Source of the DNA: Bradyrhizobium amphicarpaeae
GTDB lineage: Bacteria; Pseudomonadota; Alphaproteobacteria; Rhizobiales; Xanthobacteraceae
Length of the DNA stretch: 64,000 bases
NCBI RefSeq assembly: GCF_002266435.3
Contig: NZ_CP029426.2
Span: 3,812,001 to 3,876,000 of the forward strand
Reading direction: 5' to 3'
Both the position numbers and the translations under genes were made by a program. Below are positions 3,886 to 7,184 of the stretch, piece after piece. The number at the start of each line of letters is the position of its first letter. Position 1 is the first letter of the stretch. A model generated the notes under the pieces. That model did no database searches and was not told where the DNA came from. It saw nothing but the letters and a program-made list of their open reading frames with translations.

Positions 3886-4056
3886 GTTACAAGCGATACG
3901 GACCGCTTTTTTCACCAGCCCCAAAGGTGGCCCGTACCGCTAGATCGCCGTGCCGGGTACAGCCCTGCCACGACGTTCCGCGGCCGGCCGACGCCCAAGG
4001 CCGGCCGCGAATTCTTTACGATCATCCGGCACACTCGCTGGCCGAGGGTTTCGAGC

Positions 4057-4665
4057 ATGACGACAGCCAGACGACATGTCTCGCAATTGCTTGCGACCGC
4101 CTTGTCCGCGCTCCTCATCGCCGCACCGGCCCGGGCAATCGTCTCCGCTGGCACGCCGACCGCCAACGCCTTTCACAGCGACACAGATGGTGATGCCGAG
4201 GCCGACCGCCGGGCCATCAGCCGCGAGATCGAGCGCTTCCGCAGTTCGTCGATCTCCATCAGCCAGGCGATGTCGATTGCCGAAGCCCGGCACGCCGGCG
4301 CCACCACGGCGGATGTGAGTTTCGACGGGGCCTCCGGAATGCCGGTGTATCGGGTGAAGACCCTGCACAACGACCGGATCTGGCGCCACACCATCAATGC
4401 GACGACCGGCGAACTCGTCGGCGGCGAAGCCGCACTTCCCCTCGCCGAGCTCGACCACGAGGACCGTGACAACCTCGCGGCGCTCGGTGCGATCAGGCAC
4501 CGCCTGGCCGAGGCCGTGCGCGTCGCCGAACGCGCCGCCTCGGGCAAGGCGATCAGCGGCGGGCTGGTGCGCGAACGCGGCCGGCTGAATTTTTCGATCG
4601 TCGTCGTCAGTGGCGACGATCTCAAGGAGGTCACCCTCGAACCGCCGGGCGCCAAGACGAAATAG
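4057..4665 (+). CDS. Secreted PepSY-domain protein
   Basis: This encodes 202 residues. The first 28 or so form a Sec signal peptide ending at ARA, so the mature protein is periplasmic. Two segments have the PepSY pattern: 'SISISQAMSIAEARH' followed by VYRVKTLHND and a GEL turn near residues 65-130, then a partial repeat ('HRLAEAVRVAERAASGKAI', then LNFSIVVVSGDD) near 145-195. PepSY domains usually inhibit peptidases or sit in membrane sensors; the real role here is unknown. The gene lies behind the operator-covered promoter at 3854-3882, so it may belong to the TetR regulon. No obvious partner follows, because the asd leader promoter starts about 65 bp downstream. Confidence 0.75.
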   Translation: MTTARRHVSQLLATALSALLIAAPARAIVSAGTPTANAFHSDTDGDAEADRRAISREIERFRSSSISISQAMSIAEARHAGATTADVSFDGASGMPVYRVKTLHNDRIWRHTINATTGELVGGEAALPLAELDHEDRDNLAALGAIRHRLAEAVRVAERAASGKAISGGLVRERGRLNFSIVVVSGDDLKEVTLEPPGAKTK

Positions 4666-4731
4666 CAGGTGCGAAATAGCGGTGCCCAATAGCGGAAGTC
4701 CGGCCCCGGCATCGACCGGGGTGAAAGGCCA

Positions 4732-4760
4732 TTGACGGGCGCAAAACTCTCCCGCATAAG
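4732..4760 (+). promoter_or_regulatory. Promoter of the asd leader
   Basis: The -35 TTGACG (4732-4737) and -10 CATAAG (4755-4760) are separated by 17 bp. The expected transcription start is near 4767, one or two bases before the leader-peptide ATG at 4769, so the leader mRNA would be leaderless or nearly so. Confidence 0.6.
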
Positions 4761-4768
4761 TCGCCGCC

Positions 4769-4840
4769 ATGTTCACGACCACCAAACGCACGACCAAAAC
4801 CACCACGGCCTCAGGGGCCCGGGGAGGCGTGCGCGCGTAG
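4769..4840 (+). CDS. Threonine-rich leader peptide of asd
   Basis: This is a 23-codon reading frame with eight threonine codons among codons 3-13 (runs of three, two and three, split by Lys and Lys/Arg), then a Gly/Arg/Ala-rich tail and a TAG stop at 4838. There is no good Shine-Dalgarno site, which fits initiation at the 5' end of the transcript. It is followed 31 nt later by a Rho-independent terminator and then by asd, whose product lies in the aspartate pathway to threonine. The arrangement matches a transcription attenuator in which ribosome stalling at Thr codons reports low charged tRNA-Thr. The segment 4804-4812 can pair with 4824-4831 (pause hairpin), and GGGGC at 4814-4818 can pair with the 5' arm of the terminator. 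Confidence 0.75.
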   Translation: MFTTTKRTTKTTTASGARGGVRA

Positions 4841-4870
4841 TCGTCGACTAGAACGCAATCCACTCTACCG

Positions 4871-4902
4871 AAGCCCCGCCCATGATGGTCCGGGGCTTTT
4901 TT
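4871..4902 (+). terminator. Attenuator terminator in front of asd
   Basis: The perfect stem AAGCCCCG (4871-4878) / CGGGGCTT (4891-4898) has a 12-nt loop and runs into six consecutive T residues (4897-4902). It sits between the leader peptide and the asd start, so it can only act as a conditional terminator for asd. Confidence 0.85.
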
Positions 4903-4935
4903 GTTGTCTAGATTTCAAACGCAATGGAGGACAAA

Positions 4936-5961
4936 GTGAGTAACGATCCCGTCGTCGCGATTGTCGGCGTCACCGGTGCGGTGGGCGCCGAATTCATCGC
5001 CACCATGGACAAGCGCGGCTTTCGCATCAGCAAGCTGAAGGCGCTGGCCAGCGCCCGCTCGGCCGGCAAGACGGTGTCGTTCCGGGGCAAGGACGTCGTC
5101 ATCGAGGAGCTGACCGAGCGCTCTTTCGAAGGCGTCGATATCGCGCTGTTCTCCGCCGGCGGCAGCATCTCGAAGAAGTTCGCACCCATCGCAGTCAAGT
5201 CCGGCGCGGTCGTGATCGACAATTCCTCCGCCTTCCGCATGGATCCGAACGTGCCGCTGGTGATCCCCGAGATCAACGCCAACCGCATACGCGACCACAA
5301 GGGCATCATCGCCAACCCGAATTGCGCCGCCATCACCGCCCTGGTGCCGCTGTGGCCGATCCACCAGAAGAACCGCATCAAGCGCGTCATCATCTCGACC
5401 TACCAGGCCGCGTCCGGCGCCGGCGCCGCCGCGATGGAGGAGCTGGTCGAGTCGACCCGCGCCAATCTCAACGGGCAGGTCTATGCGCCGAAGGTGATGC
5501 CGCATCCCTATGCCTTCAACCTCTTCAACCACAACACGGCGATCGATCCTGATACCGGCTACAACGACGAAGAGACCAAGGTCATCAAGGAGACCCGCAA
5601 GATCTTCGAGGACGACGAGATCGCCATCGGCGTCACCTGCGTACGCGTGCCGGTGCTGCGCGCCCATTGCGAGGCCATCACCTTCGAATGCGAGAAGCCG
5701 ATCGACGAGGACCAGGTCCGCGCCATCATGGCCCGGGCATCCGGCGTGAAGGTGGTCGACGACCGCGCCAGGAACTACTTCCCGATGCCGATCGACGCCT
5801 CGGGCCAGGACGACGTCCTGGTCGGCCGCATCCGCAAGGATCTGAGCGATCCCTCAGGGCATTCGATCTCGATGTTCGTGGCGGCGGATCAACTGCTCAA
5901 GGGCGCGGCGCTGAACGCAGTGCAGATCGCGGAGCTGCTGCCGCAGCGGGTGATGGCGTAA
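4936..5961 (+). CDS. asd: Aspartate-semialdehyde dehydrogenase
   Basis: This enzyme reduces aspartyl phosphate to aspartate semialdehyde with NADPH, the branch point to Lys/diaminopimelate, Met, Thr and Ile. I place the start at GTG 4936 because GGAGGA (4926-4931) lies 4 nt upstream; the ATG at 4924 overlaps that ribosome binding site. The 341-residue product has the nucleotide-binding GVTGAVG at 11-17 and the catalytic cysteine in ANPNC (Cys130), followed by the conserved substrate-binding region. Length is normal. It is preceded by a threonine-rich leader peptide and terminator (4769-4902), so expression is probably controlled by attenuation. No other aspartate-pathway gene is adjacent. Confidence 0.95.
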   Translation: MSNDPVVAIVGVTGAVGAEFIATMDKRGFRISKLKALASARSAGKTVSFRGKDVVIEELTERSFEGVDIALFSAGGSISKKFAPIAVKSGAVVIDNSSAFRMDPNVPLVIPEINANRIRDHKGIIANPNCAAITALVPLWPIHQKNRIKRVIISTYQAASGAGAAAMEELVESTRANLNGQVYAPKVMPHPYAFNLFNHNTAIDPDTGYNDEETKVIKETRKIFEDDEIAIGVTCVRVPVLRAHCEAITFECEKPIDEDQVRAIMARASGVKVVDDRARNYFPMPIDASGQDDVLVGRIRKDLSDPSGHSISMFVAADQLLKGAALNAVQIAELLPQRVMA

Positions 5962-5966
5962 CGCAC

Positions 5967-6106
5967 TCACCCGTCATCCTGAGGTGCGAGCCCAGCGCTG
6001 CAAAGCAGCGCTGGGGGAGCCTCGAAGGATGCACGGGCGGGACGCGGCAGCGTGGCCGTCGCCCTTCGAGGCTCGCCGAAGAGGCGAGCACCTCAGGGTG
6101 ACGGTG
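5967..6106. repeat. Long palindromic intergenic repeat between asd and queA
   Basis: The ends form an inverted repeat: CCGTCATCCTGAGGTGCGAG near 5971-5990 pairs with GAGCACCTCAGGGTGACGG near 6086-6104, with few mismatches. Nested inside are a smaller hairpin (CAGCGCTG / CAGCGCTG near 5993-6014) and a third pair, GCCTCGAAGG (6019-6028) with CCTTCGAGGC (6064-6073). This multi-hairpin layout resembles the dispersed palindromic units of Bradyrhizobium intergenic regions. It may also end transcription from both convergent genes. Confidence 0.7.
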
Positions 6107-6116
6107 ATCGATTGCG

Positions 6117-7184
6117 CTACGCCCGAAACAACAGGCACGCATCGCCGTACGAATAGAACCGGTATCCGCTCGCGATCGCATGCGCATAGGCATGCTGCAT
6201 CGTCTCCAGCCCAGAGAACGCCGACACCAGCATGAACAGCGTCGACTTCGGCAAATGGAAATTCGTCATCAGGACATCGACCGCACGGAAGCGATAGCCG
6301 GGCGTGATGAAGATCGAGGTCTCGGCCGCGAACGGCTGAATCGTGCCGTCCTCGCGCGTGGCGCTCTCGAGCAGCCGCAATGACGTGGTGCCGACGGCGA
6401 CGATGCGGCCGCCGTTCTTCCGTGCGCCGTTGAGGCGCTCCGCCGTCTCGGCGGAGATCGTGCCCCACTCGGCGTGCATCTTGTGGCCTTCGGTATCGTC
6501 GACTTTGACCGGCAGGAAGGTCCCTGCCCCGACATGCAGCGTCACGCGGTTGACGCCGACGCCGCGGTCGCGCAGCGCCTGCTCCAGCGCCGGAGTGAAA
6601 TGCAGGCCCGCGGTGGGTGCTGCCACCGCGCCTTCGTTAACCGCAAACATGGTCTGGTAGTCGGCGAGGTCCTGCTCGTCGGGCATGCGCTTGGAGGCGA
6701 TGTAGGGTGGCAGCGGCGGGTTGCCGAGATCGGCGATGGCCTGGTCCAGCGCCGGGCCGTGAAACGAGAACGACAGCGTCACCTCGCCGTCGCCGCCCTT
6801 GGCTTCAACCTCGGCATCGAGATGGCCGAGCAGGCAGACCTTGCCCTCATTGCCGAAGCGGATGCGGTCGCCGGCCGTGAGCTTCTTCGCCGGCTTCACC
6901 AGCGCCTGCCAGCGCGAGCCGTCGAGCCGTTTGATCAGCGTCGCCTCGATCTTCGGCTCGGTCTCGCGGCCGATGCGGCGGCCCTTCAATTGCGCCGCGA
7001 TCACCTTGGTGTCGTTGACGACGAGCTGGTCACCTGGCTTCAGCCATTGCGGGAGGTCGGCGATGGTCTGGTCGCGCAAGCCGCCGTTCTCCACGACCAG
7101 CATCCTGGCGGAGTCGCGCGGGCTCGCCGGGCGCAAGGCGATGCGCTCGGCGGGCAGGTCGAAATCGAACAGGTCGGTGCGCAT
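6117..7184 (-). CDS. queA: S-adenosylmethionine:tRNA ribosyltransferase-isomerase
   Basis: QueA transfers and isomerises the ribosyl part of SAM onto preQ1-modified tRNA to give epoxyqueuosine, the step after Tgt. The 355-residue protein starts [19 protein letters not shown], the standard family N-terminus, and has the hallmarks [28 protein letters not shown] and [10 protein letters not shown] in order. Length is normal. It lies just downstream of the ppi-coaD run on the same strand, with a repeat element between. Confidence 0.96.

Follow-up and report, generated by a model that had tools for sequence, protein, structure and literature searches.

Which amino acids does the short threonine-rich reading frame ahead of an aspartate-semialdehyde dehydrogenase gene (asd) of Bradyrhizobium amphicarpaeae sense, by what mechanism, and which asd does it govern? 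The locus lies in the window, by which we mean the whole stretch of 64,000 nt that was analysed (NZ_CP029426.2, positions 3,812,001 to 3,876,000, forward strand), and a first-pass annotation had described it as a threonine-responsive attenuator of asd. The attenuator in front of asd is real and conserved. It is very probably a classical ribosome-mediated transcription attenuator controlling asd1 by charged tRNA-Thr and, probably jointly, tRNA-Lys, the sensing itself being a prediction. Of the earlier description, the ribosome-mediated mode and the sensing of Thr hold up, as linkage, phylogeny and stalled-ribosome geometry fit them, whereas the asd concerned turned out to be accessory and Lys equally conserved at the decisive codons.

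The leader and the isozyme gene behind it

Reading the sequence located each element named before at, or within 1-2 bases of, its proposed coordinates. On the plus strand, TTGACG (4732-4737) and CATAAG (4755-4760), separated by a 17-nt spacer, form a predicted promoter whose transcription start would fall at about 4767-4769, at or adjoining the leader ATG; a promoter here had already been claimed by the first-pass annotation, and both hexamers recur in the genus, each in 103 of 104 unique leaders. The leader ORF, which had been given 23 codons with eight Thr, occupies 4769-4840 on the same strand (MFTTTKRTTKTTTASGARGGVRA, stop TAG) and carries Thr at codons 3, 4, 5, 8, 9, 11, 12 and 13 together with two Lys codons, namely Lys6 (AAA, 4784-4786) and Lys10 (AAA), the latter forming with Thr11 (ACC) the pair at 4796-4801. 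The intrinsic terminator, earlier set at 4871-4902 with six T, likewise stands: a GC hairpin at 4872-4897 runs into T6 at 4897-4902 on the plus strand, and T6 follows the hairpin in 104 of 104 unique genus leaders. A promoter and terminator consensus scan, under its own rules, listed neither the promoter nor the terminator site.

Since the leader ATG lies only 8 nt past CATAAG, the mRNA of the leader ORF is probably leaderless or nearly so. Start mapping in B. japonicum, in the available text of that study, placed 320 starts within 0-10 nt ahead of a start codon, with 192 of them directly on it (PMC4842269). When a filter for Thr/Lys-rich short ORFs was run over both strands of the window, only 3 of 1158 overlapping 330-nt regions passed, and all three contain the leader ORF. 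The leader ORF plus a T5 tract precedes asd1 at all 80 of the best loci (the best 80 of 474 relatives, by title 78 Bradyrhizobium, one Bradyrhizobiaceae and one 'Frankia'), and the leader ORF is also found at 20 of 20 divergent loci. At 13 of the 80 loci (L010, L019, L024, L029, L032, L039, L050, L052, L060, L065, L066, L067, L068) the leader is placed about 40-60 nt further from asd1, and in the six of these that were inspected the extra stretch between terminator and asd1 resembles a palindromic dispersed repeat (GCATGATCCGGAAAAG...GATCATGC).

The gene behind the terminator, asd1, extends over 4936-5961 on the plus strand. Its product scores 411 bits against TIGR01296 (asd_B), above the cutoff of 324.2, and is by this model a true asd_B enzyme. 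The start codon is probably GTG 4936 rather than the alternative ATG 4924: GGAGGA (4926-4931) lies 4 nt ahead of the GTG, which is kept at 80/80 loci, and the ATG is kept at 72/80. Another asd, asd2, about 45% identical, is present elsewhere in all 60 sampled genus genomes (in pieces in two of them) and lies at G000:C1:346648 in the genome of the window; four of the 60 carry asd2 only. The Thr/Lys leader filter found nothing upstream of nine asd2 genes of the genus. The asd behind the attenuator is an accessory isozyme, which stands beside a housekeeping asd2 without such a leader.

Linkage between element and gene is close. A covariance model built from 35 leaders and searched against the genus genomes located the element in 186 of 195 Bradyrhizobium genomes and the asd1 protein was found in 185, so distributed that 185 genomes hold both, nine hold neither and a single one (G286, in 620 contigs) holds the element only. 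Wherever a genome has two asd1 matches (five cases), it also has two or more elements, and two other genomes (G320, G333) have two elements and one asd1 match. Across a family sample of 119 genomes from 47 genera, asd1 occurred only in five genomes of the genus and in one of another genus (G133; 82% identity, leader MITTTQRATTKTPFRAEESARV), the next best asd matches reaching 52% and 47%. As only Bradyrhizobium and this one genome of another genus have asd1 in the family sample, comparison across neighbouring genera is mostly impossible on orthologues. At E <1e-20, the covariance model matched 198 family genomes 11 times within Bradyrhizobium, once per genome, and once in G133. Plasmid records returned one 51.7% asd match only, and a degenerate DNA pattern search for the leader gave chance matches too frequent to use.

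Decisive codons and alternative folds

Parsing of 129 genus loci yielded 104 unique leaders, 100 of them with 23 codons. Within these 100, Lys6 (AAA) and Thr11 (ACC) are invariant and Lys10 (AAA) is kept in 99, in line with a first pass over 94 leaders (Lys6 94/94, Lys10 93/94, Thr11 94/94). The other Thr codons vary (first pass, n=94: codon 3 in 82, 4 in 66, 5 in 88, 8 in 89, 9 in 80, 12 in 78, 13 in 65) and are often lost, as in the leader of L125 (MTTNAKRNAKTAKPCRASGDLRA), which has only three Thr; Gly19 (GGA), inside an RNA arm, is found in all 100. Judged from these sequences, conservation of Lys at the decisive codons equals that of Thr, and a joint Thr and Lys sensor is likely. Furthermore, Lys6 and Lys10 are nearly always AAA although in the compared asd genes AAA serves for 71 of 1520 Lys codons, so that the codon itself, or its bases, is selected. 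A codon-position test was discarded as proof of leader translation, since the substitutions at Thr and Lys codons of 96 loci with 23-codon leaders (2.5, 2.7 and 3.6 changes per site at codon positions 1, 2 and 3) have too weak a three-base periodicity.

Three structures on the plus strand would make up the switch. A protector hairpin 1:2 is predicted in the window between 4807-4811 and 4815-4819 (overall 4807-4819), overlapping the end of the control codons; its register differs between lineages, and shuffles do as well. An antiterminator 2:3 (4814-4877), which spans the stop codon, is predicted to join GGGGC 4814-4818 to GCCCC 4873-4877 and to be extended by 4820-4826 and an inner stem. Folding and conserved complementarity both indicate that it and the 3:4 terminator are mutually exclusive, as they share segment 3. 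The first-pass annotation had proposed the GGGGC/GCCCC pairing by itself, which is indeed predicted and conserved in complementarity but represents only the core of the longer antiterminator. Its pause hairpin (4804-4812/4824-4831) fared less well: it pairs in 75.7% of cells among 34 distinct leaders, which is no better than shuffles (84/500 as high) and includes one double-changed cell, and in the window the hairpin 4807-4811 with 4815-4819 is predicted to compete with it.

Pair counts for these four structures, from the same 34 distinct leaders against 500 column shuffles, favour the terminator most, which pairs in 95.8% of cells, above all 500 shuffles, with an invariant core. The antiterminator pairs in 86.3% of cells vs 40-53% when slid, and does not exceed column shuffles (493/500 as high). 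The paired cells of 1:2 stand out from column shuffles (2/500 as high), and as a group its hairpins are no better than their own shuffles (median p 0.27, 2 of 26 below 0.1). Taken as a whole, the region has only a slight folding advantage over its shuffles (z -1.24). Double-changed pairs were absent from 1:2, 2:3 and 3:4 in the 34 distinct leaders, and the sole both-sides change in an RNAalifold consensus, column 53/62 (CG 24, GC 8), may be one event. The core arms hardly vary in Bradyrhizobium and so offer next to no covariation; the covariation check proposed earlier for both pairings was run and left them unproven. We rejected covariation as proof of pairing, with 1:2, 2:3 and 3:4 free of double changes and the 4804-4831 hairpin holding its single cell.

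The RNA downstream of a ribosome was folded at each codon of the first 98 unique leaders, with the leading edge 13 nt from the A-site codon, at equilibrium and ignoring the RNA behind the ribosome. The mean predicted terminator probability is 0.95 with no ribosome, 0.65-0.84 with A-site codons 3-9, 0.37 at codons 10-11 and at least 0.96 from codon 12 onwards. The minimum at codons 10-11 means that the near-invariant Lys10-Thr11 sits where stalling should matter most. When the footprint was varied from +10 to +16 nt on every second leader (49), the dip remained within codons 9-12, and in nascent RNA lacking segment 4 the predicted 2:3 pairing exceeds 0.5 in every leader with the ribosome at codons 3-11 and has vanished by codon 16. 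The dip is not universal, as three of six Bradyrhizobium-type examples (L118, L121, G133) have little or none of it and it is absent also in many class-set leaders, and L038 and L125 have a weak predicted terminator even when the ribosome is placed further upstream.

These elements suggest the following course of events. Transcription would begin at or adjoining the leader AUG. When Thr and Lys are plentiful, the ribosome would reach the stop after 23 codons and there cover the greater part of the antiterminator's 5' side (about 4821-4850), GGGGC 4814-4818 could refold with segment 1, and the 3:4 hairpin with U6 would then form and stop transcription near 4902. When Thr or Lys is scarce, the ribosome would instead stall on one of codons 3-11, with the strongest effect at Lys10-Thr11. 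Its front would cover segment 1 and leave segment 2 (GGGGC) free to pair with GCCCC of segment 3; the terminator would thus be blocked and asd1 made, the product of which would feed Lys, Thr, Met and Ile synthesis.

Leaders outside the genus and at housekeeping asd

Relatives of asd1 were present in 28 of 385 genomes of a class sample (two of these Bradyrhizobium), in one genome of another family in an order sample (G469) and in others of a phylum sample. Altogether 29 asd1 loci lie outside the genus and G133, of which 28 are readable once L292, a partial asd match, is left out. A Thr/Lys leader precedes asd1 at 20 of these 28, in 14 families (for instance MMRFATKTTTTKTTTFGGPARTCA, MSTIKTSTTTKTTASAGRSLVRAG and MSKRTQTTTTMTKKTTLRGGLFVMRAA); 19 of the 28 were recognized by the filter for Thr/Lys-rich ATG leaders alone, and the degenerate leader of L284 was added by eye. 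Among control stretches from the flanks, 3 of 416 passed, two being asd1 leaders on the other strand, and with a looser filter 1 of 318 and 1 of 312 passed. All 20 class-set leaders have a Lys next to a Thr, with both codons in use (AAG 29, AAA 24), and in 25 of 26 leaders compared the last such Lys codon precedes GGGG or GGGC by 11-19 nt, a distance close to what a stalled ribosome is presumed to span. With that last Lys codon in the A-site, the predicted nascent 2:3 pairing averages 0.92 over 20 sequences, vs 0.17 three codons on (L293 was left out of this folding of divergent lineages). Five or more T follow the hairpin in only 5 of the 20, so that some of these leaders may act on translation. 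In some asd1 leaders (L270, L283, L293, L296, L297) a Met lies inside the Thr/Lys run (MTKK), Met being another end product of the pathway.

In a tree of 60 rows (midpoint root; L271 and L270 on long branches; the short asd2_L352 and L292 left out), asd1 and asd2 separate (100/99), and all 23 leader-bearing asd1 rows fall into a single subclade (88/99), 20 of them coming from the class set, two from the genus and one from G133. This arrangement suggests that the leader was gained once. Orthologous asd loci lacking the leader, which the first-pass annotation had regarded as contrary evidence, do exist, but the eight leaderless alphaproteobacterial asd1 rows all fall outside the leader-bearing subclade. 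As in the genus, asd2 accompanies asd1 in the class, being found in 28 of 28 asd1-bearing genomes tested, and the leader filter passed none of these 28 asd2 genes.

Housekeeping asd genes bear leaders elsewhere. In other families of the same order, a Thr/Lys leader was found at 15 of 30 housekeeping asd loci, vs 1 of 21 in the family of the window (L220, L221 and L226 left out of the count). In several, the control codons end the peptide (e.g. ..SSKTTAKKTTTKTV), and by eye a CUCUCCC beyond the stop could form a stem with GGAGAGG close to the start codon. Several asd2 loci (L311, L313, L316, L317, L318 and others) combine Thr/Lys leaders with an apparent stem hiding the ribosome-binding site and no U-tract terminator, an arrangement that suggests translational control of these asd2 leaders.

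The closest precedent is SEP5 of Sinorhizobium meliloti, a small ORF which according to the available text of its report contains six Thr codons and three Lys codons, lies in the 5'-UTR of a gene named there as aspartate dehydrogenase, is translated as judged by Ribo-seq and a Western blot of a tagged fusion, was proposed as a possible leader peptide, and is described as conserved only in Sinorhizobium (PMC10117765). Compared by description, it shares with the leader of the window a place in the 5'-UTR of an asd gene and a cluster of Thr plus Lys codons, but the text available mentions no RNA switch or terminator, and the leader of the window belongs to another asd clade and has a terminator (PMC10117765). 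By the same description SEP5 appears to resemble the housekeeping asd leaders (e.g. L311, L313), with control codons at the peptide end and no U tract. The novelty claimed for an attenuator of asd in the first-pass annotation is therefore narrowed, as a Thr/Lys leader at an aspartate-pathway dehydrogenase gene had already been suggested for Sinorhizobium, as far as the available text goes (PMC10117765). In the open-access literature, taken without supplements, an attenuator of asd1, the Thr plus Lys pair and the wide distribution were not described beyond the SEP5 remark; the kind of attenuator itself is old.

Competing readings, known systems and wider meaning

The reading most in need of weighing is that Thr alone is sensed and the Lys codons are retained for their base composition, which gives A-rich, unstructured RNA, or because they are decoded slowly. 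We consider this possible, though doubtful. Thr outnumbers Lys in most leaders (8 vs 2 in the window), the sole replacement of Lys10 (L115/G037) is Thr, and the AAA bias, which covers 199 of the 200 Lys6 and Lys10 codons of the genus, is what a nucleotide constraint would give. Sensing of Thr alone sits poorly with the class-set leaders, all of which keep the Thr-adjacent Lys in either codon, and with the housekeeping asd leaders of other families, where Lys likewise accompanies Thr (both being counted by the filter); Lys is, moreover, an end product of the pathway. It is rather unlikely that the hairpin is not mainly a terminator and that a stalled ribosome instead alters a pairing by which the ribosome-binding site of asd is masked. 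The lack of a five-T tract behind 15 of 20 class-set hairpins points that way, as do the CUCUCCC/GGAGAGG complementarity of housekeeping asd leaders in other families and stems such as GUCUCC/GGAGAC or GACCCUGU/ACAGGGUC, which cover the binding site in several loci. The latter stems are suggestive only, being significant at 6 of 22 leader-bearing vs 2 of 8 leaderless loci (p 0.14 in the window), and the constancy of T6 behind the hairpin throughout the genus argues against translational control there.

We give little credence to a trans-acting leader product, be it a leaderless small mRNA, a peptide or an sRNA like rnTrpL/peTrpL, to which control of asd would be secondary. The predicted RNA does start at or near the AUG and end at the terminator, much as rnTrpL starts with the trpL AUG in the available text on that system (PMC7298713), yet class-wide the peptides share little except the control codons, and the element accompanies asd1. 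Least probable is a metabolite-binding riboswitch or a His-type leader in another frame. In the window an overlapping frame is rich in His (HDHQTHDQNHHG), and 87 of 100 leaders have 3-5 His in it, but its opening codon in the window is a distant upstream TTG, and the remaining 13 leaders have 0-2 His while Lys6 and Thr11 persist, on which grounds the His leader was rejected. For a riboswitch, Rfam over 4000-6500 at E up to 10 gave two sub-threshold matches only, and no lysine riboswitch, T-box or other cis-element.

Ribosome-mediated transcription attenuation with joint Thr and Lys sensing, which we prefer to these alternatives, places the leader in a well-known class. It has a short ORF with control codons for an end product of the pathway of the downstream gene and, in the window and the genus, an intrinsic terminator with a U tract. 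The leader of the enterobacterial thr operon similarly combines a Thr-rich leader peptide, alternative hairpins and a terminator before aspartate-pathway genes, but it senses Thr and Ile and controls thrABC, whereas the leader of the window has Thr plus Lys and precedes asd; the enterobacterial thr leader family in Rfam, Pfam and NCBIfam had no match at the leader of the window. The rhizobial trpL attenuator (peTrpL) is, in the available texts, leaderless, with consecutive control codons and ribosome-dependent attenuation, and Bradyrhizobium japonicum has its own peTrpL; it differs in its Trp codons, in its target trpE(G) and in having been shown by experiment (PMC7298713, PMC10117765).

On a wider scale, we see about even chances that Alphaproteobacteria as a class place asd under joint Thr and Lys control by the ribosome, in at least two architectures: a single-origin attenuator on the accessory asd1 (in the 15 families where it was found) and a leader of different build ahead of the housekeeping asd in several families of the order of the window. 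If so, this would constitute a ribosome-based lysine sensor, with one of two isozymes carrying the end-product control, and would explain how many Alphaproteobacteria tune the branch point that leads to Lys, Thr, Met and Ile: behind a standing housekeeping asd there would be a second asd, opened only on shortage of Thr or Lys. SEP5, noted in one genus, would become part of a wider pattern, and two near-invariant decisive codons would offer a clean system for the dissection of a two-amino-acid attenuator.

A further rhizobial case, the DUF1127 uORF attenuator of S. meliloti, depends on uORF translation and probably on Rho and responds to tetracycline, no intrinsic terminator having been found according to the available text; it shares uORF-dependent attenuation with the leader of the window, which has an intrinsic terminator (PMC12218461). 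Sixteen matches of our covariance model were read individually, one being that of G133 asd1, four lying before dapA-like genes, five before DUF1127-like genes and six without assignment, some of which resemble gene-end terminators. The genes of the third group (G000:C1:4936677-4936801 (L200), L203, L204, L210 and L213, in Bradyrhizobium and one other genus) are presumably small DUF1127-type genes, a 90-residue piece having no NCBIfam match, and are preceded by a strong terminator and by a conserved short ORF whose end reads MTRFGWAVGGVVR or nearly so. The matches before dapA-like genes (L202:757-887, L206, L208, L215) come from three genera of the same family; the product of L202 matches TIGR00674 (208.2 bits vs 206.15) and the other three are dapA-like by eye. 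Their leaders comprise a short ORF, a GCCCC..GGGG hairpin and, in some, GUCUCC..GGAGAC by the start codon, with peptides that are not Thr/Lys-rich, and possibly represent a related switch on the Lys branch.
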